Below, piece after piece: positions 47,123 through 63,780 of a DNA stretch of 64,000 nucleotides. A program made the position numbers and the translations under genes. The notes below the pieces were generated by a model, which made no database searches, was not told where the DNA came from, and saw nothing but the letters and a program-made list of their open reading frames with translations. Source of the DNA: Halocatena pleomorpha. Lineage in GTDB: Archaea; Halobacteriota; Halobacteria; Halobacteriales; Haloarculaceae. The stretch's first letter is position 1; each line of letters starts with the position of its first letter. The stretch is taken from assembly GCF_003862495.1 (NCBI RefSeq), contig NZ_RRCH01000021.1, positions 62,001-126,000 on the forward strand, written 5' to 3'.

Positions 47123-47698
47123 TTATTCTTCGGATTCTGTGTCTGTGCTGAGCTCAGGAGGCAGAATCGGATCTTTCGGTGTAGTTGGTTGTGACGGTGT
47201 CGCTTCTGTCGTTGTCGTCTGAGTGGAGGTCGGTTCAGGGGTTGATGTCGGCGTGGATGACGTTTCGGTAGTGGTCGTAGTGGTTGTTGTTGTCTCCGTC
47301 GGAGTGGCTGGCGTTTCGGACGTAGTCGTAGTGGTCGTTGTCTCCGTCGGAGTGCTCGGTGCTTGGGGAGTGGTCGATGGGGCTGTAGTGGGGACGGTTG
47401 GGTTCGAAACGGATGTCGTGGTATCCACTGGTTCCTCGGTGGCCGGATCTGGCTGCGATTCTGTCTGTTCTGGTGATGGTGTTGATGGTTCTGGTGTCGA
47501 CGTATCGTTGAGACTGAGTGGCGATGGAAAGCCTCCAAGAACCGCGATGAGGATGCCGACAGCGAACAACCCGATCCCAGCAAGTACCAATCCTCCCTGT
47601 ACGAGGCGCTGTTTCCCGGTTGACTGATCCCCACCCCGAGATGACCGCCTGTCTCGGTCACGTCGTGACCGTGACCGTCGATTATCGCGATTTCCCAT
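47123..47698 (-). CDS. Single-pass membrane protein with Thr/Pro-rich exposed tail
   Basis: A 191-residue protein. Residues 1-30 are strongly basic (Arg-rich, cytoplasmic). One membrane helix spans about residues 33-56. The rest is a low-complexity Thr/Pro/Glu/Ser tail, including long Thr runs and one N-D-T sequon. Topology rules put the tail outside the cell, where Thr-rich segments of haloarchaeal surface proteins are often glycosylated. No family was recognised. It is convergent with the halolysin gene (18-base gap). Confidence 0.6.
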   Translation of the reverse strand: MGNRDNRRSRSRRDRDRRSSRGGDQSTGKQRLVQGGLVLAGIGLFAVGILIAVLGGFPSPLSLNDTSTPEPSTPSPEQTESQPDPATEEPVDTTTSVSNPTVPTTAPSTTPQAPSTPTETTTTTTTSETPATPTETTTTTTTTTETSSTPTSTPEPTSTQTTTTEATPSQPTTPKDPILPPELSTDTESEE

Positions 47699-48077: not shown

Positions 48078-48920
48078 TTACCCAGAACACACGGTGTTCG
48101 AGAATTTGATGATCATGTTTTCGAGCGCACTGCCTTGATCAGTGTCGAAGATACCTCGTCCGTGTCCGTCGGTCGGGAGTTTCTCGATCCGTTTCGGATT
48201 GGGTGCTTGCTGGTGCATCATGCTGGTGGCTTGGACGTATCGTTTCTTGTCGTTCTTGCCGACAACGAACAGGAGCCGACCGGAGAGTTCGGGTGCGTAG
48301 CTCACTGCATCACCCACTGAGATGATGGCTGAGCCGTCGATACTCGTTCCGGAGAGCGTGTTTGCTCTCACGATAGCGCTGGCTCCAGAGCTTGCACCAA
48401 CGGCAACAACTGTTTTTGCGCTCTGTTTTTCCCGGAGATACGAGACGGCACCGGCGACCGTCTTGGCTTTTGTGACGCCACGACTGCTGGCGTCTAGCGA
48501 CACTGTCAGCGCGGTGTGGCCTTCCCCTGCAACCGTGCTTGCTTGGGGTTCCCAGGCGGCTCTGTCGGATTCATCTCCTGGAACGAAAAGGACCGCGCAG
48601 GAACCGCTTCCGTACAGCGTTCCTTTCACCGTTCGGTCATCGTTCGTCGAAAATGAGACCTCCTTGCCACTCGATTGTGTCGTCGTTTCCGTGGTTGTCG
48701 ATTCGGTTGTGGTTGGCTCAGCTGTCGTCGGTTCTGTGGTCGATTCTGTCGTCTCCGTCGACGGTGGTGTGGTTCGCGTCGCCGGGGCCGTCGATTCCGG
48801 CTCGGTCGTTGTCGTGTTCTCAGCCGGGCTTTTGTCTTCTGTACAGCCAGCAAGGCTGCCAGTAGCAGCCAATCCACAGAACAGCTTCATGGTCTGTCGT
48901 CTGCTAATTGAGTGGTCCAT
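48078..48920 (-). CDS. Tat lipoprotein with alpha/beta-hydrolase-like domain
   Basis: A 280-residue lipoprotein. S-R-R-Q-T-M-K-L-F and the lipobox L-A-G-C near residue 25 indicate Tat export and lipid anchoring. Residues 30-85 are a Thr/Glu-rich low-complexity spacer with one N-T-T sequon. Residues 90-280 look like a small alpha/beta hydrolase (A-V-L-F-V-P-G-D near residue 108, V-A-V-G-A-S-S-G-A-S as the nucleophile elbow near residue 172, D-G-H-G-R-G near residue 250). The substrate is unknown. Confidence 0.75.
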   Translation of the reverse strand: MDHSISRRQTMKLFCGLAATGSLAGCTEDKSPAENTTTTEPESTAPATRTTPPSTETTESTTEPTTAEPTTTESTTTETTTQSSGKEVSFSTNDDRTVKGTLYGSGSCAVLFVPGDESDRAAWEPQASTVAGEGHTALTVSLDASSRGVTKAKTVAGAVSYLREKQSAKTVVAVGASSGASAIVRANTLSGTSIDGSAIISVGDAVSYAPELSGRLLFVVGKNDKKRYVQATSMMHQQAPNPKRIEKLPTDGHGRGIFDTDQGSALENMIIKFSNTVCSG

Positions 48921-49313: not shown

Positions 49314-51494
49314 GTGAAACGGAATCTCGTTACTGCATTTGCCGCGGTTGCTGGGTCACAGGTGCTGATCCTAGTTGCACAGGCGCTGTTTTCTCCCCTC
49401 CTCATCCGTGTTCTCGGTCCCACTACGTATGGGGAGTTTGGGACGCTGTCCGCGGGATTCGGTCTGTTGATGATTCTCGTCAGTTCGGGCATCAACGGTG
49501 GAGTCCGCAAGTTCATCGCTGAAGAACACGAGAGCGATACATGGAAGAGCAACGTATTCGCGTACTACTTCCGGCTCGCGCTCATCTTCGCGCTCATCGC
49601 AGCGGTCGTGTTAGTGCTCGCTGCTGAGTTCGGTATCGTTGGAATGATCTTCAGTCCCAAATACACTCCCTACGTTTACCTCTTAGCACTGCTCGTGTTC
49701 GCGGCACAGTTCCGCGAGTACGTTCGGCGGGCGCTGATGGGACTGAAACTCGAACACATTGGAGGGATGCTGAACGTAGTGTACAAGATCACGTACTACG
49801 TCACTGCGATCGTGCTTGCGTTCCTCGGTTATGGGGTCGCTGGCGTTTTTGTCGGACAGATCCTAGCGAGCATGATCGGATTCGTCGTCGGATTCATCTA
49901 CGTCTCGAAATCGGTCTCACTCAAATCACTGTTCCAATCGACGCCATCTGATTTCCCTCGAAGAGAGCTATTTAATTTCAATCACAATTCTATTGTGTAC
50001 TTCTTCTTACTGAAGTCGATGTATGAATTTGACATCCTCATGCTCACTTCGTTTACCAACAGTACGTTGACTGGCTATTACAAGGGTGCAATCACCCTAG
50101 CCCAGTTCCTGTGGTTGCTTCCGACGGCGCTGCAAGGGCTCATGATCCAGTCCACATCGGATCACTGGAACAACGACCGCCTGCAGAAAATCGAGGAGTT
50201 GGCGACGCGGTCGACCCGGTACGTCCTGTTGTTGATGTTGCTGTTGGCGATCGGTCTCGGGGCGCTCGCACCAGTATTCGTACCGATGTATCTCGGTGTC
50301 CAGATGGAACCAGCGGTAACGCCGCTGCTCATCTTGCTCCCCGGCACGGTCGGGTTCGCGATCGCCCGCCCTCTGTTGACGATCAATCAGGCGAGTGGGA
50401 ACATGCGGACCGTGATCATCGCGACCGGGGTTGCGGCCGTGATAAATCTCTCTCTCAACTTCCTGCTCATTCCGCAGTATGGGATGCTCGGAGCAGCGCT
50501 GTCGACCTCGATCGGATACGGGTCACTGCCGCTCTTTCAAGCATGGGGCGCGCGGGTACTGGGATACTACCCGTTCAAAAACGCCCGTATGGGTCGGATC
50601 AGCGCAACGGCAATCCTCAGCGCCAGCGTCATCGCCATTATGTCGTTGTCGTTCGGCGCGACGACGTTCGCTGATCTGGGTCTCGAGTGGCTTGGCATTC
50701 TCGGGACGATTCCCATCTCCATCTTGGTTGTCCCGCCGCTGGGCTTTCTGCTCTACTCGTTGATTGCCATCGCCACGGGCGCGATCGATCTCGGGGAGAT
50801 ATTCGAAATCCTCGTAAAAATCCCCGACCCCGTCGGGTCGACCGTTCGGCCGATTAAACGCCGGTTTGAGGCGTCCAAACAGTTCGGAAACGAACAGAGC
50901 CGGGCGTCTGCGATCAAACTGATCGTTGGGCTGGCGGCGGTGATCGTGATCGTCAGCGGGGCTGTTATGGCCGCTGGATTCCCGCTGTTGGCTATGACAC
51001 CGTTCGGATCGGCGGACGAAGGCGTGCTCGGATCGATCGTGGATCAACCGCCGTCTCCACCGTCCGACAGCAGCGGGCCGAGCTATAACGGGACTGTGGG
51101 ACTCACACCAGATCTGACACCATCGGACACGTCGACGCCATCCCCTACGCCATCTTCACCAACTGACGATGCGGTTACTGTGCCGACCCCCTCAGACGAC
51201 GGCGGCAGTGTACCACCACCAGTCGACGACACGACGACGTCCGCCTCGCCGGCTGGCAACACCACGACAACGCCCGCTTCGCCAATCAACAACACGACAA
51301 CGACGGCCGCCCCGCCGGCTAACGACACCACGACAACGACGGCCGCCCCACCGGCTAATGACACCACGACGACGACCGTTTCGCCAATCAACGGCACCAC
51401 GACACCACCCTCCACGCCGGCCCCAGGCACCACGACGGAAGACGACGGACTCTTCGAGTTCCAACTGTCGGACCCGACGATCCACGTCGGATAG
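49314..51494 (+). CDS. Oligosaccharide flippase (Wzx/MATE-like) with sequon-rich C-terminal tail
   Basis: A 726-residue protein. Residues 1-480 form a polysaccharide-transporter (MVF/Wzx) fold with about 12-14 helices (G-P-T-T-Y-G-E-F-G-T near residue 36 is typical). It is thought to move lipid-linked glycans across the membrane. A 60-residue cytoplasmic linker and an extra helix (about residues 540-565) follow. The tail of about 150 residues is Thr/Pro/Ser-rich with at least six N-x-T sequons, four of them in near-tandem repeats. The start codon is GTG. A flippase with such an exposed tail is unusual. Confidence 0.82.
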   Translation: MKRNLVTAFAAVAGSQVLILVAQALFSPLLIRVLGPTTYGEFGTLSAGFGLLMILVSSGINGGVRKFIAEEHESDTWKSNVFAYYFRLALIFALIAAVVLVLAAEFGIVGMIFSPKYTPYVYLLALLVFAAQFREYVRRALMGLKLEHIGGMLNVVYKITYYVTAIVLAFLGYGVAGVFVGQILASMIGFVVGFIYVSKSVSLKSLFQSTPSDFPRRELFNFNHNSIVYFFLLKSMYEFDILMLTSFTNSTLTGYYKGAITLAQFLWLLPTALQGLMIQSTSDHWNNDRLQKIEELATRSTRYVLLLMLLLAIGLGALAPVFVPMYLGVQMEPAVTPLLILLPGTVGFAIARPLLTINQASGNMRTVIIATGVAAVINLSLNFLLIPQYGMLGAALSTSIGYGSLPLFQAWGARVLGYYPFKNARMGRISATAILSASVIAIMSLSFGATTFADLGLEWLGILGTIPISILVVPPLGFLLYSLIAIATGAIDLGEIFEILVKIPDPVGSTVRPIKRRFEASKQFGNEQSRASAIKLIVGLAAVIVIVSGAVMAAGFPLLAMTPFGSADEGVLGSIVDQPPSPPSDSSGPSYNGTVGLTPDLTPSDTSTPSPTPSSPTDDAVTVPTPSDDGGSVPPPVDDTTTSASPAGNTTTTPASPINNTTTTAAPPANDTTTTTAAPPANDTTTTTVSPINGTTTPPSTPAPGTTTEDDGLFEFQLSDPTIHVG
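51294..51365 (+). repeat. Two tandem 36-bp units inside the flippase tail
   Basis: Units at 51294-51329 and 51330-51365 differ at only two positions and encode T-T-T-T-A-A-P-P-A-N-D-T. More diverged copies flank them on both sides. Each unit carries one N-D-T glycosylation sequon. The array probably grew by slippage or unequal exchange. Confidence 0.7.
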
Positions 51495-51731: not shown

Positions 51732-52418
51732 TCAGCTCGGTAGTACTTCGTGGTGTTGGGCCGCGATTCCGACTGTTATCATCGCGAACAGTGCCGTGAT
51801 GAACATCACCAGAACGCCCTGTGACAGCGCGATGATGTCGGCCATAGACACAGCGATCGACAGGACGCTACCGACTGTCGCCGCTCCGTAGTAGCGGAGG
51901 AAACGCGTCTGTGTGCGTTGTGCCTCTGTTGTCGATGTGTCACTGTCGTCGGTGTGGTCGGGTGTTGCTGCCGTAGTGGATGAAGTTCGAGCCGTACCGT
52001 CGGGAACCGACGGCTCGATGTTGAGATACGCATCGAGTTGGTCGGCCAGTGCCGTCCGCGAGACGATGCCGCGCTGTTGGTTGTACGTGAGTACACCGGC
52101 CTCGTCGAGTTTGGGAAGGTGGGATTGGTACAGAGCGATGTACACGCGCTGGCGCTCGTTGGAATCGAGCGCGTCGATTGTCGTGTCGTTTTCCCACGCC
52201 GCGACCTGTTCCGCGATGTCGCGCATGTTGATTTCGCCGTCCGTATCCTGAAGAAACTCCAACACTTGTCGCCGTCGTTGATTCTGAAGCAGGTGAAACA
52301 GTTCGTCTTTCGACAGTTCGGACGGGCGGTCGTCCGACGCCGTCGAACGTGAGTCCTCACCTGCTCGCGGTTCTGGATTCGTATCTACACCAGCGTCTGT
52401 GTTCGCCACTGCATTCAT
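51732..52418 (-). CDS. DUF7344-type winged-helix membrane regulator
   Basis: A 228-residue protein. Residues 36-125 form a winged-helix domain (E-L-F-H-L-L-Q-N-Q-R-R-R-Q-V-L-E-F-L, then Q-S-H-L-P-K-L-D-E-A-G-V-L), the DUF7344 pattern found in many haloarchaeal regulators. After an acidic linker come two membrane helices (about residues 180-200 and 203-222). The topology suggests a membrane-tied transcription factor. The ATG at 52418 was chosen (M-N-A-V-A-N); another lies three codons upstream. It sits between the flippase and the sugar operon, both of which it might control (inference). Confidence 0.8.
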   Translation of the reverse strand: MNAVANTDAGVDTNPEPRAGEDSRSTASDDRPSELSKDELFHLLQNQRRRQVLEFLQDTDGEINMRDIAEQVAAWENDTTIDALDSNERQRVYIALYQSHLPKLDEAGVLTYNQQRGIVSRTALADQLDAYLNIEPSVPDGTARTSSTTAATPDHTDDSDTSTTEAQRTQTRFLRYYGAATVGSVLSIAVSMADIIALSQGVLVMFITALFAMITVGIAAQHHEVLPS

Positions 52419-52475
52419 AGTACTCATCCCTATGTGCCAGGGAAAGGGCGCCTTCAGTGTGGGTAAGTGTCCGAT

Positions 52476-53402
52476 TCAGTTAAGAACCTTCTGATAGACG
52501 CGAACGAGATCCCGTCCGAGTCGATCGAGACCTCGGTCGAGAACCGATCGTCCGTTTGACTGCTTTTCGGCGTCGAGCACGTCCGTGAGTGCAGCGACGA
52601 GTTCGTCTTCAGTGTCTGCAATCCCAGTCGGTTCGACTCCCTCCAGCACGTCAGATACGAAGCCCACGTCTCGTGAGACGACAGGGAGGTTACAGGCCGT
52701 GGCCTCACAGACGCTCATCGGTCCGCTCTCGTAGTCAGATGTCACGAGCAACGCGTCGCTTGCGTTCATGTAGTCGGGTACCGCCTCGTAGGCCACCCCC
52801 GTCACCGTCTTGAGCGTCGCGTTCGGAACGCGGGCAACGACGCGCTCGGCCAGTTCGTGGTTTTTGACCGGCCGGTCCGGATCGTAGGGGAACAAAACGA
52901 CCCGTTCGTCGGTGTCCCATCCCACGCGCTCGCGGGCAGCATCACGGTCTGTCGGTTCGAACAGGTCGGTGTCGACGCCAAAGGGCACGAATTCGTGTGG
53001 GACGTCGAGTTGGCGAGCAAGCGGTTTCGACGGCGCAATGACGGCGTCACTCCCCCGTGCAGCAACGCGACTCACTTCCCGGAGCCACCGCGGTCCCATC
53101 ACGTCTGAGCCCCATAACGTCATCACGACCGGTCGAGTGGGCTGACAGAGCGCGAGCGGACCGATCAGCCCGTAGTTCACGTGCACGAGATCGAAATCAG
53201 CGATCCCTTTACCGAGCAGTTGGAGATACGCACTCAGATACTCCCGTGGACCGCGCCCCCCTGATCGGGGACGGGGGACAACCAACGTTTCACACTCGAC
53301 GCCGCGTTCTTCTAGCACCTGCACCTGTTGCTGGAAGAACGACCGGTTCGAGGTCGTCACCTGCAGGACGCGAAGATCAGTTGGATCAGTTTCGGTTGTC
53401 AT
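52476..53402 (-). CDS. Glycosyltransferase family 4
   Basis: A 308-residue GT-B glycosyltransferase. The acceptor side begins V-L-Q-V-T-T-S-N-R near residue 12. The donor-binding signature near residue 220 is S-D-Y-E-S-G-P-M-S-V-C-E-A-T-A, with the conserved E-x7-E arrangement of GT4 retaining enzymes. It would add one sugar from a nucleotide donor to a growing lipid-linked glycan at the cytoplasmic face. It overlaps the DUF354 gene by 17 bases and is the last gene of the minus-strand sugar operon. Confidence 0.9.
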   Translation of the reverse strand: MTTETDPTDLRVLQVTTSNRSFFQQQVQVLEERGVECETLVVPRPRSGGRGPREYLSAYLQLLGKGIADFDLVHVNYGLIGPLALCQPTRPVVMTLWGSDVMGPRWLREVSRVAARGSDAVIAPSKPLARQLDVPHEFVPFGVDTDLFEPTDRDAARERVGWDTDERVVLFPYDPDRPVKNHELAERVVARVPNATLKTVTGVAYEAVPDYMNASDALLVTSDYESGPMSVCEATACNLPVVSRDVGFVSDVLEGVEPTGIADTEDELVAALTDVLDAEKQSNGRSVLDRGLDRLGRDLVRVYQKVLN

Positions 53403-54408
53403 CGAGTGCGTTCAGGATTACGTCGGTTGTGTCGACCGTCTCTGCCAGCAGTCGCTGACGGCGTTCGTCCCAATCGGTGTCTGTGGTGAGGATGTCGACG
53501 GCGGTTTCGAGCGCGTTGTGATGGCGGTACGATCCTTGGCAGTTGTACAGCAAGCCGTATTTGGCTTCGATCTCGTCGGTGTAGCCCATCCGAAGCGTGT
53601 TCACGTACACCGCTGGCGTCCCAAGCACCGCGCTTTCGACCGCCATCGTCGCGCCTTCTCCAACGAAGAGATCAGCGTACGCCAGCAGATCGTGCATCCG
53701 GTGGGGAGCGACAGTCGCGCGATTGTCTTCGAGAGTACTTGGTAGCTCCGTCTCTGAGGTGATAAGCACGCGCGCGCCAGTGGCTTCGAGTCGATCGACA
53801 ACGTCGGTCACGTCGTCGAATCCGCTTTCACCGACATCGTGAGAGGCGTCCCACGAGACCAAGCGAAGTACGACGTATCGCTCGTCAGGTTCGAGACCAA
53901 CGCTATCGAGGACGCTCGGATCCGGATCGAACCGATTCGGATGGAGGTAGGCGAGCTCGTGATAGCCGTCGTATCGTTCGTGTTGTGTCCTCGTCTCGTC
54001 GGTGAAACACGTCGGTGTCCAGATCTCATCAGCGAAGGGGAACGTAATTGCGTTCCCCGGCGCGTGTTCGGTGTCGGTGAACACAACGCTTGTAGCCCCG
54101 CAGATCGTTGCGACGTGGGCCGCGGCTGTTCCCCCGATCGCAGCCATCACATCGGGCTGTTCCTCACGCGCGCGCTGAAGCAGCCGATACTCCCAACGGG
54201 GTTGGTCGACGAGTAGTCCCTGAATCCCGTTCGACTGTCCGTTGACGAGCACCTCGTGATCGATGTCGTACGCTTCGAGGAGATCGACGGCCACCTCCTT
54301 GTCACGTGCGAACACCGATACCTCGTGACCGTCGGACCGCAGTTCCCTGACCGCGTGTTTAAAGAAGTGAACGTGTGCTGGGTGCTGGATCGTGATACAG
54401 TAGTGCAT
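53386..54408 (-). CDS. DUF354 family protein (UDP-sugar 2-epimerase/glycosyltransferase-like)
   Basis: A 340-residue GT-B-like protein. It begins M-H-Y-C-I-T-I-Q-H-P-A-H-V-H-F-F, the typical DUF354 opening, and contains F-V-G-E-G-A-T-M-A-V-E-S-A near residue 253, a nucleotide-sugar-binding pattern shared with WecB/WbpI 2-epimerases. DUF354 members are common in archaeal surface-glycan clusters. It could be the 2-epimerase of the diacetamido-sugar route or a glycosyltransferase. The ATG at 54408 gives this opening; an in-frame extension has no similarity. Confidence 0.85.
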   Translation of the reverse strand: MHYCITIQHPAHVHFFKHAVRELRSDGHEVSVFARDKEVAVDLLEAYDIDHEVLVNGQSNGIQGLLVDQPRWEYRLLQRAREEQPDVMAAIGGTAAAHVATICGATSVVFTDTEHAPGNAITFPFADEIWTPTCFTDETRTQHERYDGYHELAYLHPNRFDPDPSVLDSVGLEPDERYVVLRLVSWDASHDVGESGFDDVTDVVDRLEATGARVLITSETELPSTLEDNRATVAPHRMHDLLAYADLFVGEGATMAVESAVLGTPAVYVNTLRMGYTDEIEAKYGLLYNCQGSYRHHNALETAVDILTTDTDWDERRQRLLAETVDTTDVILNALDDNRN

Positions 54409-54425
54409 TGGCGTTCGGTCCTCGA

Positions 54426-55715
54426 TCACAGCCGGTTGTAATCGAAGTTCGCTTCGATCGCTCGGTCTTTCTCCCACGTCCTCGCCACGTCGACGAGGAT
54501 CGGCTTCTCGTTGAGTTCGGCCGCAACCGTCTCAGGCGACAGCGTCGTGAACTCCTCGTGGCCGGTCGCAAGTACTACGCCGTCGAATTCCGAAAACGAC
54601 AGCTCGGATTGGATCTCGATGCCGAACGACTCGCGCGCGGTGTCGGGATCGACGTGTGGGTCGTAGCCAACCACGTCGACGCCGTACTCCGCAAGCGCAC
54701 GAATCACGCCGCGGACTTGGGAGGTGCGGATGTCTCCGACGTTCGGCTTGTACGAGAGTCCCAACACGAGGATCCGCGACTCTTTGAGCACCTTTCCGCT
54801 CCGGTTGAGTGCCTGTAACGCGAGTTCCGCTGTGTGTTTTGGCATGTACTCGTTGACTTCTCGTCCTTGCATGATGAGCTGTGGCCGGTAGCCGACCCGC
54901 TCTGCGCCGTGGGCGAGATACAACGGATCGATCGGAATGCAGTGGCCGCCGACGAGTCCGGGGCGGTACTGGTGGAAGTTCCACTTTGAGCCGGCTGCGT
55001 CGAGCACCTCCTTGGTGTCGAGATCCATATGCTCACAGACGATCGACAGCTCGTTCATCAACGCGATGTTGATGTCGCGCTGGACGTTCTCCGTCACTTT
55101 CGCGGCCTCTGCGGTCTCGATGGTGGGCGCGCGGTAGATCCCAGCGTCAACAACCGACCCGTACAGCTCCGCGAGTCGGTCTAGCGTTTCCTCGTCGGAT
55201 CCGCTGACGATTTTCGTCACCTCGCGCAGTCCACGACCGGCGTCTCCAGGGGAGAGCCGTTCGGGCGAGTACCCCAACGACAGTTTGTCCCCAACGGTCA
55301 GCCCAGAATTCTCTTCGATGACCGGACCCAGAACGTCTTGGGTGACGCCCGGATACACCGTCGATTCGAGCACGACCGTCGTCTCTTCGGAGACGTGCTC
55401 GCCAACCGTTGTGGCGGCCGCCTCGATGAACGAGAGATCGGGATTCTTCGAATCGTCGACTGGCGTCGGAACCGTGATGATGATGTACGACGCGCGTTCA
55501 AGCGTGCTCGCGTCCGTCGTAAAGGTGATGTCGCTGTCAGCGATCGTCTCATCACCGTGGTCGCCCGTCGGATCGGTGCCCGCCGCAAGTGTGTCGATCT
55601 TCTGCTCGCTGATGTCGTAGCCGATGACATCGTACCCCTCTTGATCGAACGCCAGCGCCAGTGGCAATCCAACGTACCCTTGACCGATAATACAGATCGT
55701 CGATGTTTCAGACAT
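54426..55715 (-). CDS. Nucleotide sugar dehydrogenase (UDP-HexNAc 6-dehydrogenase, WbpA-like)
   Basis: A 429-residue dehydrogenase that oxidises the C6 hydroxyl of a UDP-N-acetylhexosamine twice to a uronic acid. The N-terminal NAD motif is G-Q-G-Y-V-G-L-P-L-A near residue 11, the catalytic cysteine is in G-G-H-C-I-P-I-D-P (about residue 264), and the C-terminal UDP-binding domain starts V-L-G-L-S-Y-K-P-N near residue 325. It overlaps the next dehydrogenase gene by eight bases, so the pair is cotranscribed. Confidence 0.9.
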   Translation of the reverse strand: MSETSTICIIGQGYVGLPLALAFDQEGYDVIGYDISEQKIDTLAAGTDPTGDHGDETIADSDITFTTDASTLERASYIIITVPTPVDDSKNPDLSFIEAAATTVGEHVSEETTVVLESTVYPGVTQDVLGPVIEENSGLTVGDKLSLGYSPERLSPGDAGRGLREVTKIVSGSDEETLDRLAELYGSVVDAGIYRAPTIETAEAAKVTENVQRDINIALMNELSIVCEHMDLDTKEVLDAAGSKWNFHQYRPGLVGGHCIPIDPLYLAHGAERVGYRPQLIMQGREVNEYMPKHTAELALQALNRSGKVLKESRILVLGLSYKPNVGDIRTSQVRGVIRALAEYGVDVVGYDPHVDPDTARESFGIEIQSELSFSEFDGVVLATGHEEFTTLSPETVAAELNEKPILVDVARTWEKDRAIEANFDYNRL

Positions 55716-57102
55716 TGATACCTATTCCTCGGTAATGAATTGCGTCGTGATCACGTAGGCTTTTCAGTTCTTGTCGACCGTCGACGAGCACGAGCCGTCG
55801 GTCCGCGTCCGTCGGCCCGAGCGCAGGAACGTCGAGATCGTCGAACGCCGGTTGTGGCGTTACGAGCACGACTGCGTCGTAGGCTTCGCCCAGTTCCGCC
55901 ATCGAGACGATCGTCGCTCCTGCCACCTCGAACGGCTCGGTGTGGCTGTTCACCGGATCGACGGCGGTCACAGTTGTGCCTGCGCTGTCTAACTCCTCGA
56001 CGATCGGCAGTGCTGGTGTGGCACGGATTTCATCGACGCCGGGCCGGTATGTCAGTCCCAACACCAGCACCGCCGCGTCTTCCGGGTCGATCCCTTCTGC
56101 TCGGAGTCCATCGAGCGCGTGGGTCGCCGTGTAGTGGGGCATCGCTTCGTTCGTCTTCCGCGCCTGCTCCATCACCGGCGTCTCGTTCTCGACGGTCCCC
56201 ATCACGAACCGGGGGTAGTACGGAATGCAGTGTCCGCCAACGCCCGCCCCGGGCTGGTGAATCTCACAGAACGGCTGTGTGTTCGCGGCGTCGATGGCTT
56301 CGGTCACATCGATGTCAAACTCCTCTGTCAGGCGAGCCAGCTCGTTCGCCAATCCGATGTTGACATCGCGGTAAACTCCTTCGAACACTTTCACCGCTTC
56401 CGCGGTCGTCGCGTCCGAAACTGTGACGATCTCGTTATCGTTGATCTCTCCGTAGATGAGTTCGGCCACTCGCGTGCTTTCCGCGTCGAGTCCGCCAACG
56501 ATCTTCGGATATGCTCCTCGGATGTCTTCGAGTGCCCGACCACTCGCGGTTCGCTCAGGACAGAAAGCCATGCCGAACTCCCCGAGCGACAAGCCACTTT
56601 CGGCTTCGAGCACCGGCAGCAACCGGTCGACACAGCTCCGTGGTGGCAACGTCGATTCCGCGATCACGATGTCGCCCGGTTCGAGTCCGTTCGCGATCGT
56701 ACGCATGGCTGTCTCCATCACCGATAGATCCGGCTGGTCGTTCTCATCGATGAGCGTCGGGACGATCACGACGTGAACGCGCGCGTTCTGGGCGGCTGCC
56801 GCGCCGTCGGTGGTTGCGGTGAACTTGCCGTCTGCGACTAACTCCGAGACGAGTTCGGGGAGTTCCGGCTCGCCGGTGATGTGACACCCCCCGTTTGTGA
56901 GCTGATCGACTACTGCTCGGTCGATATCGACGCCGGTGACGTTGCCAGTCACGTCGGCGTACACTGCTGCGAGGGGCAGTCCCATCTTCCCGAGTCCAGT
57001 CACCGACACCGGAACCGATCCGTTCGTCAGGGCATTTCGTTGTTCTGCGCTCGGTGCCTCCGAATTGTACAGTCCGACGCGTGTCGCCTGTGAGTCGCTC
57101 AT
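55708..57102 (-). CDS. Nucleotide sugar dehydrogenase, second paralogue
   Basis: A 464-residue member of the UDP-glucose/GDP-mannose dehydrogenase family. After an extended N-terminus (about 30 residues) comes [10 protein letters not shown], the NAD-binding loop, then the catalytic cysteine in [11 protein letters not shown] near residue 300, and V-L-G-L-T-Y-R-P-G near residue 365. The proline-tyrosine pair after the cysteine motif differs from the downstream paralogue (I-P-I-D-P), so the two may use different UDP-sugars. It is embedded in the sugar operon by 4- and 8-base overlaps. Confidence 0.88.
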
Positions 57103-57683
57103 CGTAACATGTTCTCCGGGGTCAGTTCCTGTGGTAGCTGTTGGTGCACTGCCGGCGTGCCGACCGCCAGCGTCTTCGGCGGTACGTCCCTCGTAACCAC
57201 GGCTCCAGCGGCGACGAACGCGCCCTCTCCAACGGTCACGTCGGGAAGTATCGTCGCGTTCGCCCCGATCGAGACGCCGTCCTCGATGGTCGGTCCGACG
57301 AGATCGACATCCCGGCGCACAGGATAGGGATCGTTCGTCAGCACGCCTCGGGGTCCGATGAACACGTTGTCACCGATCTCCGTAGCGCTCGGCACATACA
57401 CCCCGGTTTGAAGACTCACGTGCGAGCCGATGGTCGTCGTCCCGTCGATAACGGCGTCCGTGCCGACGATCACCGAGTCTCCGATCGTCGTCTCCTCTCG
57501 CACGAGCGCCCGGTGACCTGTGGTGAAGTCGTCTCCGACCTCTACGTCTGTGTAGATGATCGTGCCAGCTCGGATTCGTGCATCGTCGCCCAACACCGTG
57601 GCTGATGCGTCCTCGTCGTGTCGGTATCCGACGGTCGCTCGCTCGTCGATGTCGGCGTTAACGCCCGCGTCGTACGCGGTCAT
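57099..57683 (-). CDS. Hexapeptide-repeat acyltransferase (WbpD/WlbB-like N-acetyltransferase)
   Basis: A 194-residue left-handed beta-helix transferase. Hexapeptide repeats of the (I/V/L)-G-x4 type run from about residue 28 to 165 ([31 protein letters not shown]). N-D-P near residue 118 is the position used by WbpD-type enzymes that acetylate the 3-amino group of UDP-2-acetamido-3-amino uronic acids. It overlaps the upstream part of the operon by four bases. Acetyl-CoA is the probable donor. Confidence 0.88.
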
Positions 57684-57864
57684 CGGATGACCCTCCTGTT
57701 CACCGTATCTGTTTTGCTGATCACATTCCCGGTCGCGTTGGTACTGCCCGTCTTCGACCCCGAATCTGGCCGTTCGCGTGTGATTTCTCGTTGCTTCATG
57801 ATCGTTCAGTTGTCATCGGTGTGAATCGACTTGTGTGTTTCGTCGCTTCCGCGTCGTTTACTGG

Positions 57865-58860
57865 TCAATCGACGGCTGAGTAGGAAAATGGACTGGATTG
57901 TCTCTCTGCCGTTTCGTCGTTCACCTTCGTATCGATCGTCTGGGTTAGTTCGAGCGCCCGGAGTCCGTCTTCGCCCGTCACGATCGGGTCCTCGCGGTTC
58001 TGAACCGTGGCTGCGAACGACGTTAATTCGTTTTTCAGAGGCTCGGTTTGGTCGATCGAGAGTCGTTCGACGACGTTCGAATGGCGGTGGTGAATATCAC
58101 CCTTATTGACGAACTCCGAAGAAGACTGTCGGTGAACCTCGACTGACTGGTTGATGTAGTCGAGTTCGACCCAACAGCTTTCTGCGGAGATCGTGAGTCG
58201 CCGTATCTTCCGCTGGGTCACCCGGCTCGCGCTCAACTGCCCGACGATCCCTGATTCGAATTCGAGCAACGATTCGGCGTATCGTCCTTTGTGGTTTCCG
58301 GCGGCCTGCACCGACACGACCGGCTCGCCAACGATCGCCAGCATGATCTCAACGTCGTGGATCATGAGATCCATGACGGCGGTGTCCTCGATGGCGCGGC
58401 TCGGTGGTGGTCCCAACCGTTCGACGTTGAGACCGATGATGTCGAGATCGTCGACCATCCCCATGAGCGCTCTCACTGCCGGATTGAACCGCTCGATGTG
58501 TCCGACCTGTAGAATGACATCACGCTCGGTAGCGCGTTCAATGAGATCGCGGCCCTCTGCCGGATCTCCGACGAACGGCTTTTCGATGAGGAGGTCTACG
58601 CCGGCAGTGATACAGTCGCGTGCGATCGTGCTGTGATACTGGGTTGGAACAGCGACGGATACCATATCCACCTGATCGAGTAGCGAAGCGATCGAGTAGG
58701 CGTCCGTGCCGTACTCCGACGCGACCGACTGCGCACGCGACGCGTTCGCGTCAGCGACACCAACGAGCTCAGTTTCAGACAGCTCGTTGTACACCCGAGC
58801 GTGGTTTTGGCCCATGCTCCCAACGCCGACCACCCCCGCCCGAAGCGACCGTTCAGACAT
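57865..58860 (-). CDS. Gfo/Idh/MocA oxidoreductase (WbpB/WlbA-like)
   Basis: A 331-residue NAD-dependent sugar oxidoreductase. The Rossmann motif is G-V-V-G-V-G-S-M-G-Q-N-H near residue 10, and E-K-P-F near residue 94 is the conserved active-site strand with catalytic lysine. H-D-V-E-I-M-L near residue 170 is typical of the C-terminal domain. WbpB/WlbA oxidises C3 of UDP-GlcNAc-uronate to the 3-keto sugar used by the aminotransferase. Its start overlaps the DegT gene by eight bases. The ATG at 58860 follows the operon overlap; the longer frame lies over DegT. Confidence 0.9.
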   Translation of the reverse strand: MSERSLRAGVVGVGSMGQNHARVYNELSETELVGVADANASRAQSVASEYGTDAYSIASLLDQVDMVSVAVPTQYHSTIARDCITAGVDLLIEKPFVGDPAEGRDLIERATERDVILQVGHIERFNPAVRALMGMVDDLDIIGLNVERLGPPPSRAIEDTAVMDLMIHDVEIMLAIVGEPVVSVQAAGNHKGRYAESLLEFESGIVGQLSASRVTQRKIRRLTISAESCWVELDYINQSVEVHRQSSSEFVNKGDIHHRHSNVVERLSIDQTEPLKNELTSFAATVQNREDPIVTGEDGLRALELTQTIDTKVNDETAERQSSPFSYSAVD

Positions 58861-59956
58861 GTTCGACCTCACAGTCTCGCATCGTTTCGCCGATTCGATC
58901 CACGTCTGCGTCCGAAAGCGACGGATGAACCGGTAAGGATAGCACTTCCTCGGCGCATCGTTCAGCGACCGGCATCGATACGTCGTGTCCGTCGTACACC
59001 GGTAGCTGGTGGATCGGCGTGGGGTAGTAGATGCTTGAGCCGATTCCTGCTTCAGTGAGCGTTTCCTGTACCGCGTCCCGGTTGCCACACCGAATCGTGT
59101 ACTGGTTGTAGGCGTGGTATCGCCCGTCCGGTTCGGTGGGCGTCACGGCGGGCGTCGCTTCCAGATAGTCGGTCAGGCGGGCCGCGTTCTCCCGACGCTG
59201 CTCAACGTAGTTGGGGAGACGCGGGAGCTGGTTGCGGCCGATCGCCCCCGCGATGTTCGTCATCCGGAAGTTGTGTCCGAGGGAAGCGTGTTCGTAGCCG
59301 TAGCCACCGTCAGTTCGGCCGTGGTTGATGAACTGCCGAGCGGCAGACGCGATCGATTCGTCGTCAGTCGTGATCATCCCCCCTTCCCCGGAGGTCATAT
59401 TCTTAGTTGGATAGAAAGAGAAACACGCGACATCTCCGAGCGACCCGATCGGCTCCCCGTCATATCGGCCGCCGTGGGCTTGGGCTGCGTCTTCGACGAT
59501 CGTTGCGTCGTACCGTTCGCCAAGCTCCCGAAACTGGTCCATGTCTGCCGCCAACGCGAACAGATGGACCGGCATGATCGCATCGACATCCCCATCCAGT
59601 TCCTGAATGCGCGCCTCGACCGCCGCTGGATCGAGCGCGTACGTCGATGGATCGATGTCAGCGAACACCGGTTCGGCTCCCGCGAGTTGGATCACGTTCG
59701 CTGTTGCGACGAACGAAAACGGCGTTGTGATCACGGTGTCCCCATCACCGATCCCAGCGGCGACGAGCGCTGTGTGGAGCGCGGTCGTTCCGTTCGTGGT
59801 CGCGACGGCGTGCTCAACGTTACAGAATTCAGCGAACGCCTCCTCGAACGCGTCGACTTCCGCGCCAGCCGCGAGGTCGCCGGCGTCGAGCACGTCGAGT
59901 ACCGCGTTTCGCTCCGTTTCTCCGAGTTGTGGATTGGCGATCGGTATCTCGGACAC
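58853..59956 (-). CDS. DegT/DnrJ/EryC1/StrS aminotransferase (WbpE-like)
   Basis: A 367-residue PLP enzyme. The PLP lysine is in F-Y-P-T-K-N-M-T-S-G-E-G-G near residue 185, with V-E-D-A-A-Q-A-H-G (about residue 155) holding the aspartate that contacts PLP. It transfers an amino group (usually from Glu) to a 3-keto nucleotide sugar. As the first gene of the minus-strand operon it precedes the Gfo/Idh enzyme with an 8-base overlap. The ATG at 59956 opens the usual I-P-I-A-N-P family start. The reaction is inferred from cluster context. Confidence 0.92.
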   Translation of the reverse strand: MSEIPIANPQLGETERNAVLDVLDAGDLAAGAEVDAFEEAFAEFCNVEHAVATTNGTTALHTALVAAGIGDGDTVITTPFSFVATANVIQLAGAEPVFADIDPSTYALDPAAVEARIQELDGDVDAIMPVHLFALAADMDQFRELGERYDATIVEDAAQAHGGRYDGEPIGSLGDVACFSFYPTKNMTSGEGGMITTDDESIASAARQFINHGRTDGGYGYEHASLGHNFRMTNIAGAIGRNQLPRLPNYVEQRRENAARLTDYLEATPAVTPTEPDGRYHAYNQYTIRCGNRDAVQETLTEAGIGSSIYYPTPIHQLPVYDGHDVSMPVAERCAEEVLSLPVHPSLSDADVDRIGETMRDCEVEHV

Positions 59957-60298: not shown

Positions 60299-61270
60299 AT
60301 GGTACGCTGGCTGCTTGATCTCGTCGCTGTCGCGCTTTTGTCGGCTGTGGCGGGTGTGGCCCTGTTTACGCTCGACGGACCGGCAAGAACCGCGCTTGTT
60401 TACCCGCTCCTCGTGTTTCTGCCCGGGTATGCATTTCTCTCGGCGTTGTTCCCTGAAGAAAGCGAACTGTCTCGATCGCGCCGTGGTCGCCAGCCGTGGG
60501 GATCACAGACCCGGCGCGCCCAGCAGGGTTCCGAGACTGACTTTCTGCTGGGCAACATTGAGCGGCTCGTGCTGTCGATCGCGCTCAGTCTCGCTATCGT
60601 TGCATTCGTCGTTTTCGCGCTGAACTTCACAGTCGGCTTTGACACACGACGGATCGCAGTCATGCTGTTCGGTTTCACCGGATCGATGGTCATTTTTGCT
60701 GTCGCTCGCCGGATCGTTCTCCCACCAGAAGAGCGCTTCACCATCGAGATCACCACAGAAGGGATCCCGATGGACGCCAGCTTCCTTGGACTGTTCGGGT
60801 TCAGCTTGCTCATACTGGCGGCCAGCACCGCCGGATTCGTCTTCCTAGATCCGGTTCAGTCTTCCAACTCCGGACTCCTCGTCGTCGCACAGAACGAGAG
60901 CACCGGCGACCTCTCGGCCCAAGCAGCAGAGACCGCGGTTATGGAGGACCGACCAGTGACGGCAGTGATCTGGAACAACGGGAGTGCGACCCAAGAGTAC
61001 ACGGTCGTCGTCACCCACGACGGTGAGGTGATCAACGAAACGACTCGAACCATTGACGCCGGCGCGGAAGGACGAATCAGGTACACCCCACCTAGCGATG
61101 GGAACCAGCTCACCTTCTACATGTACGAAGGAACCGCGCCCGACCAGCACTCTCTCAACTCCACTGAGTACTTCACTCGATTCCAGCTCTCCTCGTCCGA
61201 CGGCGAAGAGCAGGAATCACTCGCCCAACCAGCGGTTTTTGACTCCGCAGCCGCCCTAGGGAGCTCATAA
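60299..61270 (+). CDS. DUF1616 family membrane protein
   Basis: A 323-residue protein with four helices (about residues 5-22, 29-50, 92-125 and 160-185) and a C-terminal extracellular beta-rich domain (about residues 190-310) that has several N-x-S/T sequons. The L-L-V-F-L-P-G-Y-A-F near residue 40 and N-I-E-R-L-V-L-S-I-A-L-S near residue 86 are typical of DUF1616, found mainly in archaeal surface-glycan and S-layer neighbourhoods. Function is unknown. The start fits a TATA-like box 29 bases upstream. Confidence 0.85.
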   Translation: MVRWLLDLVAVALLSAVAGVALFTLDGPARTALVYPLLVFLPGYAFLSALFPEESELSRSRRGRQPWGSQTRRAQQGSETDFLLGNIERLVLSIALSLAIVAFVVFALNFTVGFDTRRIAVMLFGFTGSMVIFAVARRIVLPPEERFTIEITTEGIPMDASFLGLFGFSLLILAASTAGFVFLDPVQSSNSGLLVVAQNESTGDLSAQAAETAVMEDRPVTAVIWNNGSATQEYTVVVTHDGEVINETTRTIDAGAEGRIRYTPPSDGNQLTFYMYEGTAPDQHSLNSTEYFTRFQLSSSDGEEQESLAQPAVFDSAAALGSS

Positions 61271-62127: not shown

Positions 62128-63780
62128 ATGCCAGAGAGAGAAGAGGCCAGTACACTGTCGCGTCTGTCACCAGGCGTCAGCCGCCGATCGTTCCTCGGAA
62201 CGACCGGGGCTGCAGCAGCATCGCTTTCGGTGTCGGGGACGGCCGCAGCGTCGTCCTGCTCGCGGCAGGATGCGGGCGATATCGACCAGGACGTGGATCT
62301 GAAAAAGGCATCCACGGACGAGGTCGAGCTTCAGACCGAGGCGCCGGAGTCCGAGTCGGAACCGGATATCGAGTACGATGAAGTTATCAACGTCGTCGAA
62401 GCGGGAGCAGACAACACCGGAGGGAAATCGATTTCTTCCGTGATTCAGAAGTTGGCTGGCGACGACACGCTACTCAAGTTCCCGGAAGGGCGTTACTACG
62501 TGGATGAGCTGGTTCGGCTTACCGGCTTCGAGAACTTCGGCATGATCGGTAACAATGCCACGCTCGTGCCGGCTCCAGCGGACGAATACAAGAGTGAGGC
62601 CCGGATGTTCAAACTGGGCGTGCGGTACAATCCGGGACGAAACCTTGAGGTCAAGAACTTCACGGTCGATTACTCCGCACCGAACACCGGCCTGCGTGCG
62701 TTCGATATGTCGGTTTCCGACGGACTGATCGCTGAGAACATTACCTTCGAGGGCGTTCACGACGGTGGCACGTGGGGACCGATGCACGTCGACATCGTCG
62801 GCTCCGATGGTTACGGCATCGTACGGAACGTCGAAATACCCGAGGGAGGTGTGTTCACGAAGAACACTTCACAAGACGCGATGCCCACTGTCGAATGGGG
62901 GCCGACCGCGTTCCTTCTGTCGCCGTACCACAGCGGTCACATCGAGCTTGTCGACTGTGTCATCGGTGCGTTCCCTGACAACGGTGTGTACGATTCCAAC
63001 AGCCCTGGACAGGTTGTGGTCAAGGGTGGTCGATTCCAGAACTGCAAGTCCGGGAACATCCGGATTACGGGGGACAACAGCGGCGTGTATGGAGCACACA
63101 TCGTTATCGATCAGAACCGTCCTCTCGACGATGGCCAACACGGCATTCGTCTCGACGGCGGGAGCAATATCACGATCTCGGATTGTCTCATCGAGATGCC
63201 TCAGCCGAATGGGCACGCGATCTTCGCTCGGGAGCCGGTCGAATCGGCGGTGATCAAGAACACCGAAATCGTCACTGAGGACAACGACGCCAGAGACAGT
63301 GTCGACTCGCTCGCCATCCGTAAGGGTGCCGGAGAGATCCTCGTTGAAGGCTGTTCCATCACCCACAACCACCCCGGTCAGGCGCTACAGATCAGTGAAG
63401 GCGATATCCCGGTCATCGTCAAAGATCTCACTCTCAAAGGCGAGGCAACCGGTGAAAGCGGTGGTCGCAACGCGATCTACTGTGAACGTGATGGGTGTGA
63501 GTTCCACGACCTCGATGTCGATCTGCCAGCGGGCGATCACCGTCGTGCGCTCGGGATCTTCTCTGACAACGTTCTCGTCAAAGGTGGAGAGTACGCTTCG
63601 AGCGGTCGTCCACTCACTATTGAGGGAAGCGATGTCAGCGTTCGTGAGATCACTGCCGGTGCCTACAACGGCGATGTCGCTGTCAAAGTCGTCGAAGGTG
63701 CTGCTGAGCTCATTAACAACACCCTCTACCAGGGTATCTCTGGTTCGAACGTTGCAACCAGTGGCAATCAGTACAAGTAA
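62128..63780 (+). CDS. Tat-exported right-handed parallel beta-helix protein
   Basis: A 550-residue secreted protein. The Tat signal (S-R-R-S-F-L-G-T-T-G, cleavage after about residue 40) is followed by an acidic linker, then a pectate-lyase-like parallel beta-helix (about residues 85-540). The latter shows repeated D-G-x-N-I-T-I-S-D-C-x-I-type coils. V-V-E-A-G-A-D-N-T-G near residue 90 is the usual opening of the fold. It could be a polysaccharide lyase, hydrolase or adhesin; no catalytic set is certain. It sits beside the glycan region. The ATG opens an Asp/Glu/Arg-rich leader before the Tat motif. Confidence 0.8.
   Translation: MPEREEASTLSRLSPGVSRRSFLGTTGAAAASLSVSGTAAASSCSRQDAGDIDQDVDLKKASTDEVELQTEAPESESEPDIEYDEVINVVEAGADNTGGKSISSVIQKLAGDDTLLKFPEGRYYVDELVRLTGFENFGMIGNNATLVPAPADEYKSEARMFKLGVRYNPGRNLEVKNFTVDYSAPNTGLRAFDMSVSDGLIAENITFEGVHDGGTWGPMHVDIVGSDGYGIVRNVEIPEGGVFTKNTSQDAMPTVEWGPTAFLLSPYHSGHIELVDCVIGAFPDNGVYDSNSPGQVVVKGGRFQNCKSGNIRITGDNSGVYGAHIVIDQNRPLDDGQHGIRLDGGSNITISDCLIEMPQPNGHAIFAREPVESAVIKNTEIVTEDNDARDSVDSLAIRKGAGEILVEGCSITHNHPGQALQISEGDIPVIVKDLTLKGEATGESGGRNAIYCERDGCEFHDLDVDLPAGDHRRALGIFSDNVLVKGGEYASSGRPLTIEGSDVSVREITAGAYNGDVAVKVVEGAAELINNTLYQGISGSNVATSGNQYK

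Follow-up and report, generated by a model that had tools for sequence, protein, structure and literature searches.

The window, a stretch of 64,000 nucleotides, contains an open reading frame that begins with a GTG codon, as do its orthologues, and that encodes a predicted polysaccharide flippase of the MOP superfamily extended by a further membrane helix and a long disordered tail (Table 1). Its first 519 residues match the Pfam family PF01943 (Polysacc_synt; E = 6.6e-13, 49.1 bits against a cut-off of 28.2). In an AlphaFold model built with 78 aligned relatives these residues form a 14-helix core, whose nearest solved folds according to Foldseek are WzxE (PDB 9g9n, E = 4.5e-8) and MurJ, with MATE proteins matched as well; WzxE is also the sole sequence match in the PDB. 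The family match, the 14-helix MOP fold and a glycan-gene neighbourhood with conserved synteny all point to a transporter that is predicted to act on lipid-linked glycans, and agree with the earlier note on this DNA, which had described a Wzx-type flippase with an added helix. A frameshift or a chance open reading frame is ruled out by the recurrence of the architecture in all genomes of the genus and in many other genera.

Table 1. Features of the flippase locus, in nucleotide positions of the window (aa, residues of the flippase)
Feature	Position	Strand	Basis or remark
191-aa free-standing protein with a basic N-terminus, a helix resembling helix 15 and a Thr/Pro tail	47123..47698	-	hhalign 88.7% to helix-15 profile
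Predicted Wzx-type MOP flippase with 15th helix and predicted extracellular tail, 726 aa	49314..51494	+	ORF, Pfam PF01943, fold
14-helix flippase core, aa 1-519	49314..50870	+	AlphaFold pLDDT mostly >90; Foldseek
Basic, predicted cytoplasmic loop preceding helix 15, aa 487-535, 8 K/R	50772..50918	+	Charge analysis
15th membrane helix, aa 526-559 (AlphaFold), hydropathy core 536-554	50889..50990	+	AlphaFold, hydropathy; conserved in tailed and helix-only relatives
Disordered, predicted extracellular tail, aa 555-726, without K/R	50976..51491	+	pLDDT <50; charge, composition
Membrane-proximal tail, aa 555-583	50976..51062	+	21-27 of 29 residues identical to five orthologues; conserved in genus
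Sequon NGT592	51087..51095	+	
33/36-bp tandem array coding PxNxTTTT units	51230..51385	+	TRF
Sequon NTT649	51258..51266	+	
Overlapping sequons NNT659/NTT660	51288..51299	+	
Sequon NDT670	51321..51329	+	
Sequon NDT682	51357..51365	+	
Sequon NGT693	51390..51398	+	
C-terminal DDGLFEFQLS, variant of a short hydrophobic motif recurring in tails	51441..51470	+	
DUF7344 regulator-like gene, frequent neighbour	51732..52427	-	
GT4, DUF354, two nucleotide-sugar dehydrogenases, Gfo/Idh/MocA, DegT aminotransferase	52476..59956	-	Near-identical set in H. mediterranei
DUF1616 membrane protein	60299..61270	+	In H. mediterranei cluster too
Tat-exported right-handed beta-helix protein (PF13229/PF12708)	62128..63780	+	

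The closest characterized proteins share the fold but not the extension. WzxE, the lipid III flippase (PDB 9g9n/9g95), is the best match in both sequence and fold, but has neither a 15th helix nor a tail, and its substrate is the bacterial enterobacterial common antigen. MurJ, the lipid II flippase, has the same 14-helix MOP arrangement over ~510-540 aligned columns, but lacks an extracellular disordered tail and moves a peptidoglycan precursor. In haloarchaea, AglR is a flippase of lipid-linked N-glycans. Agl15 is another (PMC8241124). The window flippase differs from this type in bearing helix 15 and a tail and in being encoded apart from aglB and from any agl cluster, a contrast of architecture and gene position; the single STT3/AglB match of the genome lies on contig C18 and the window on C14.

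Gene content suggests that the locus resembles an exopolysaccharide (EPS) cluster. Within the genus, gene order is kept from a subtilase through the free-standing tail protein, the lipoprotein, the flippase, DUF7344, GT4, DUF354, the two nucleotide-sugar dehydrogenases and Gfo/Idh to DegT. The lipoprotein (48078-48920, minus strand), itself conserved in the genus, carries a Thr-rich linker with one NTT sequon. On plasmid pHME505 of Haloferax mediterranei, an 851-aa tailed flippase of the same subfamily (E6P09_RS17120, WP_231512970; 44.5% identity) is surrounded by DegT, Gfo/Idh, DUF7344, two sugar dehydrogenases, DUF354 and DUF1616. It shares with the window protein helix 15 and a Thr-rich tail, which in H. 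mediterranei has 17 sequons and 12-residue repeats of the NNTTTT type, and differs in the length of this tail (~300 aa) and in its ending, a further hydrophobic segment followed by LAGRNAL. Deletion of the EPS cluster in H. mediterranei abolishes its exopolysaccharide, and the polysaccharide holds mannose and 2-amino-2-deoxy-glucuronic acid (PMC5467301); judging by gene content, the pHME505 locus is probably this published cluster. A homologue of the beta-helix protein is found in the locus of 44 of the 47 flippases with helix 15 and in 2 of the 17 without it, an association that is clade-bound, with three independent pairs, too few for a phylogeny-corrected test.

The added helix had been placed at residues 540-565 by the earlier note; the helix is there, but this position is slightly late, as the modelled helix (pLDDT 55-74) and the hydropathy core both begin before it. 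When the family is laid out with 15 helices, the mean number of K+R per loop is 2.3 to 5.0 inside and 0.1 to 1.4 outside. The 25 residues ahead of helix 15 carry 3.4 K+R on average and those behind it 0.16 (n = 32 tailed proteins), and K+R are more numerous before than after the helix in 31/32 tailed and 29/30 helix-only relatives, with no protein showing fewer before. The alternation over 15 helices and the drop across the last of them lead us to reject a cytoplasmic tail and make an extracellular one, as the note had supposed, a strong prediction, though a prediction. The same topology would put the sequons outside the cell, as expected of an exported N-glycosylated protein.

The earlier note had described the tail as Thr/Pro-rich and about 150 residues long, with at least six N-x-T sequons, several of them in 36-bp tandem units. 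It measures 172 residues (39 T, 31 P, 20 S, 19 acidic and no K/R), and each of its seven Asn residues lies in an N-x-T sequon, six of the seven sites being non-overlapping. Shuffling of the tail composition gave a mean of 1.96 N-x-T (p = 0.00005), a significance inflated by tandem duplication. Two repeat periods were found by TRF, one of 33 bp over the whole array (4.6 copies, 72%) and one of 36 bp inside it (51289-51376; 2.4 copies, 92%).

The earlier note had proposed searching for the same fusion in other Halobacteria, and we found it widely. Counts rest on 80 GTDB loci, 38 relatives and plasmid records; two genomes with contigs of the same length (3,915,224) and identical, non-independent matches (G002 and G006) were counted once. 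The flippases occur in three states: without helix 15, with helix 15 and a short end, and with helix 15 and a tail. The last state comprises 32 non-redundant rows, extending 138-419 aa past position 515, from the Halocatena group, Haloferax, Halobellus, Halogranum, Haladaptatus, Haloarcula, Halorussus and other genera. Termination soon after the final helix, which the note had ascribed to ordinary Wzx/AglR proteins, holds for the three other flippases of this genome but not for this subfamily. Helix 15 without a tail is seen in 30 rows, mainly Natrinema, Natrialba and Natronorubrum; since these members keep the helix and drop the tail, the tail is dispensable in the group of Natrinema, Natrialba and their kin, and helix 15 may be useful in its own right. 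Directly downstream of their stop codons we found no convincing Thr-rich exported ORF, and we reject a split-off tail for this group. Helix 15 clusters on a 90-row tree, with 5 changes between helix and no helix over all rows. A literature search turned up no description of such flippase tails. The transporter family is a known one, and this variant of it is widespread and apparently undescribed.

In seven tailed proteins (L037, L096, L101, L111, L012, L055 and L073) the C-terminus carries another hydrophobic segment with Arg (LAGRSAR, LLVWRR), and such tails may be loops anchored at both ends. The PGF-CTERM/archaeosortase sorting-signal models of NCBIfam gave no match in seven tailed proteins at E values up to 1, though models this short can escape detection.

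Within the genus the tail is conserved in part. Its first 29 residues are kept at core-like identity, and the mid-tail is made up anew of repeats unrelated to one another: 33 bp x 5.7 with NET units in L005, and 30 bp x 7.1 with DQPPTEETPT units, free of Asn, in the sister YIM A00010 (L006). The number of sequons varies. The window tail and that of L005 have 7 each and that of Halocatena marina (L007) has 5, while YIM A00010, whose core is 87% identical, has none. We looked for homologues with sequon-free tails, which the note had named as evidence against its proposal, and found them also in Actinarchaeum (L009), YIM A00013 (L010), Haloglomus and Natronoglomus (L055, L073); of the five distinct same-genus orthologues, three lack a tail sequon. 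If tails with 4 or more sequons are scored as rich, this trait requires ~10 changes among 32 tails on the 90-row tree. Because of these absences and changes, a reading centred on the sequons fails as a conserved function.

The sequons are nevertheless more frequent than expected. In the 32 tails, NxT outnumbers the reversed TxN by 149 to 41, and by 95 to 32 when identical heptamers are counted once (p = 2e-8). A similar excess is seen in secreted ORFs of the same loci (219 vs 106) and in other exported T-rich stretches (17 vs 4), but not in cytoplasmic-like ORFs (245 vs 247). In this respect the tails resemble, on sequence grounds, exported and glycosylatable proteins; since N-x-T is over-represented in them as in other exported proteins, opportunistic N-glycosylation of the tails is likely.

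A module of helix 15 plus tail also appears to exist apart from the flippase. When a helix-15 profile was compared by hhalign, in a post hoc search, with 332 other helices near flippases, the top five were single-helix or N-anchored proteins with long low-complexity tails (probabilities 91-95; next 42). Three of the five adjoin flippases without this helix, in Halegenticoccus tardaugens, H. soli and Halalkalicoccus paucihalophilus (L051, L052 and L056). In a further genome (G035), a free-standing gene (335553-336290) lies 86 bp past a tail-less flippase match on the same strand, and this flippase groups with the Halalkalicoccus one on the tree. In 4/4 of these genomes the neighbour is the best whole-genome match to the helix-15 profile. 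The window has a free-standing gene of this kind as well, which stands beside the flippase in every genome of the genus and has close orthologues only there. For some relatives without helix and tail (e.g. L064) we found no free-standing partner nearby. Helix-15-type anchors also occur in unrelated stalked surface proteins, and the free-standing neighbours may therefore be less specific than they look. With this reservation, the profile matches argue that helix 15 and tail form a conserved module, either fused to the flippase or free-standing beside a tail-less one.

The free-standing tails of Halalkalicoccus (L056:11042-11782) and G035 (L169:985-1722) are rich in Asp, Gly and Ser instead of Thr, carry few sequons and have SPIFG motifs. 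Natronorubrum bangense, which has a helix-only flippase, encodes a helix-15-type protein with an Asp/Ser stalk and repeated domains ~22 kb from it (L172, G043:C1:494546). A protein that by eye is TatC-like (L182, G035:C1:389832) ends in an extra helix of the same kind and an acidic disordered tail, and the module may be carried by other transporters too.

We favour, with moderate confidence, an exopolysaccharide flippase that carries an extracellular, glycan-decorated leash or spacer. Helix 15 would export the disordered, acidic, Thr/Pro-rich tail into the gap between membrane and S-layer, where its length, disorder and surface position would matter and its exact letters would not. Repeats would lengthen and rewrite the tail, AglB and possibly also an O-glycosylation system would decorate it wherever sites exist, and it would hold nascent polysaccharide and secreted partner proteins close to the flippase exit. 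The glycosylation itself, the exopolysaccharide cargo and the tethering role are what we infer from features computed here, namely the fold, the charge topology, the disorder, the wide distribution, the fused or free module and the weak conservation of sequons. Mucin-like and S-layer Thr-rich stalks of haloarchaea are likewise exported, Thr-rich, glycosylatable and disordered spacers, but the window tail is attached to a transporter instead of an S-layer or secreted domain. Of the three roles put forward in the earlier note (glycan-supply sensor, surface spacer, decoy substrate), the spacer survives best.

Other readings appear less probable to different degrees. The note had reasoned that the sequons could make the flippase an acceptor of the glycans it transports, with tail glycosylation reporting or buffering their supply. 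The outside location of the tail, the placement of all its Asn residues in sequons, the NxT excess even after collapsing and the presence of an STT3/AglB gene would fit this, but we consider it very unlikely given the sequon-free tails in five relatives, the repeated changes in sequon richness, the generality of the excess among exported proteins, and a flippase sitting among EPS-type genes with the oligosaccharyltransferase gene on another contig. We found no evidence that the tail receives the very glycan that this flippase moves, nor any in favour of a sensor or a decoy. The tail could instead be an attachment point or primer: its Thr or Asn residues would receive chains, either assembled in place or handed over, and so anchor the polysaccharide to the cell. 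It would lie on the exit side of the flippase, Thr is very high in most tails, and haloarchaeal S-layer proteins are known to bear short O-glycans; these known O-glycans are, however, mono- and disaccharides (PMC8241124), the Halalkalicoccus-type free-standing tails contain little Thr, and helix-only relatives have no acceptor at all, which leaves this reading quite unlikely.

The tail might also be non-adaptive, a C-terminal extension grown by tandem duplication and tolerated since it is exported. We hold this to be unlikely: although sister species rebuild the mid-tail from unrelated repeats and the tail is missing from one large group that has the helix, tails persist through most of a deep clade, the membrane-proximal 29 residues are as well conserved as the core, N-x-T and a recurring short motif are both much more frequent than in shuffled sequences, and the module is also a separate gene beside tail-less flippases. 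The motif itself, [D/G]G[LFW][LFW]G, raises the possibility of a docking arm that has a polymerase, the beta-helix protein or the S-layer as its binding partner and so assembles an export complex. It occurs 13 times in 7229 tail residues as against 2 in ~284,000 residues of neighbouring ORFs, a relaxed form is seen 46 times where shuffling gives 0.5, it recurs in otherwise unlike tails and in one free-standing tail (L053, GGGLFG), and a beta-helix gene accompanies most helix-15 flippases. Against this, the motif was picked after the data were seen, ~40% of the tails lack it, the window has it only as the variant DDGLFEFQLS, and the beta-helix link is clade-bound with few independent pairs; we regard the docking arm as rather doubtful. 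As a genome-wide surface motif, DGG[LF]FG was discarded, with 25 DNA matches in 38 genomes falling mostly in spurious frames.

The sequons in Thr-rich tails carry a caution, in that they can turn over fast while the tail persists, and sequon counts should be read with care when function is at issue. The mechanism of archaeal exopolysaccharide export and retention is, to our knowledge, almost unknown. We tentatively suggest, as an idea with a low but appreciable chance of being right, that haloarchaeal polysaccharide export uses a disordered extracellular arm, either part of the flippase itself or encoded as a single-helix protein of its own. The short hydrophobic motifs of this arm would bring in partners, either secreted glycan-processing proteins or components of the S-layer. 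If so, the arm would do the organising work that in bacteria is done by a co-polymerase and outer-envelope proteins. Haloferax mediterranei, which is genetically tractable and makes EPS, has this conserved surface module and offers a direct experimental handle on the process.
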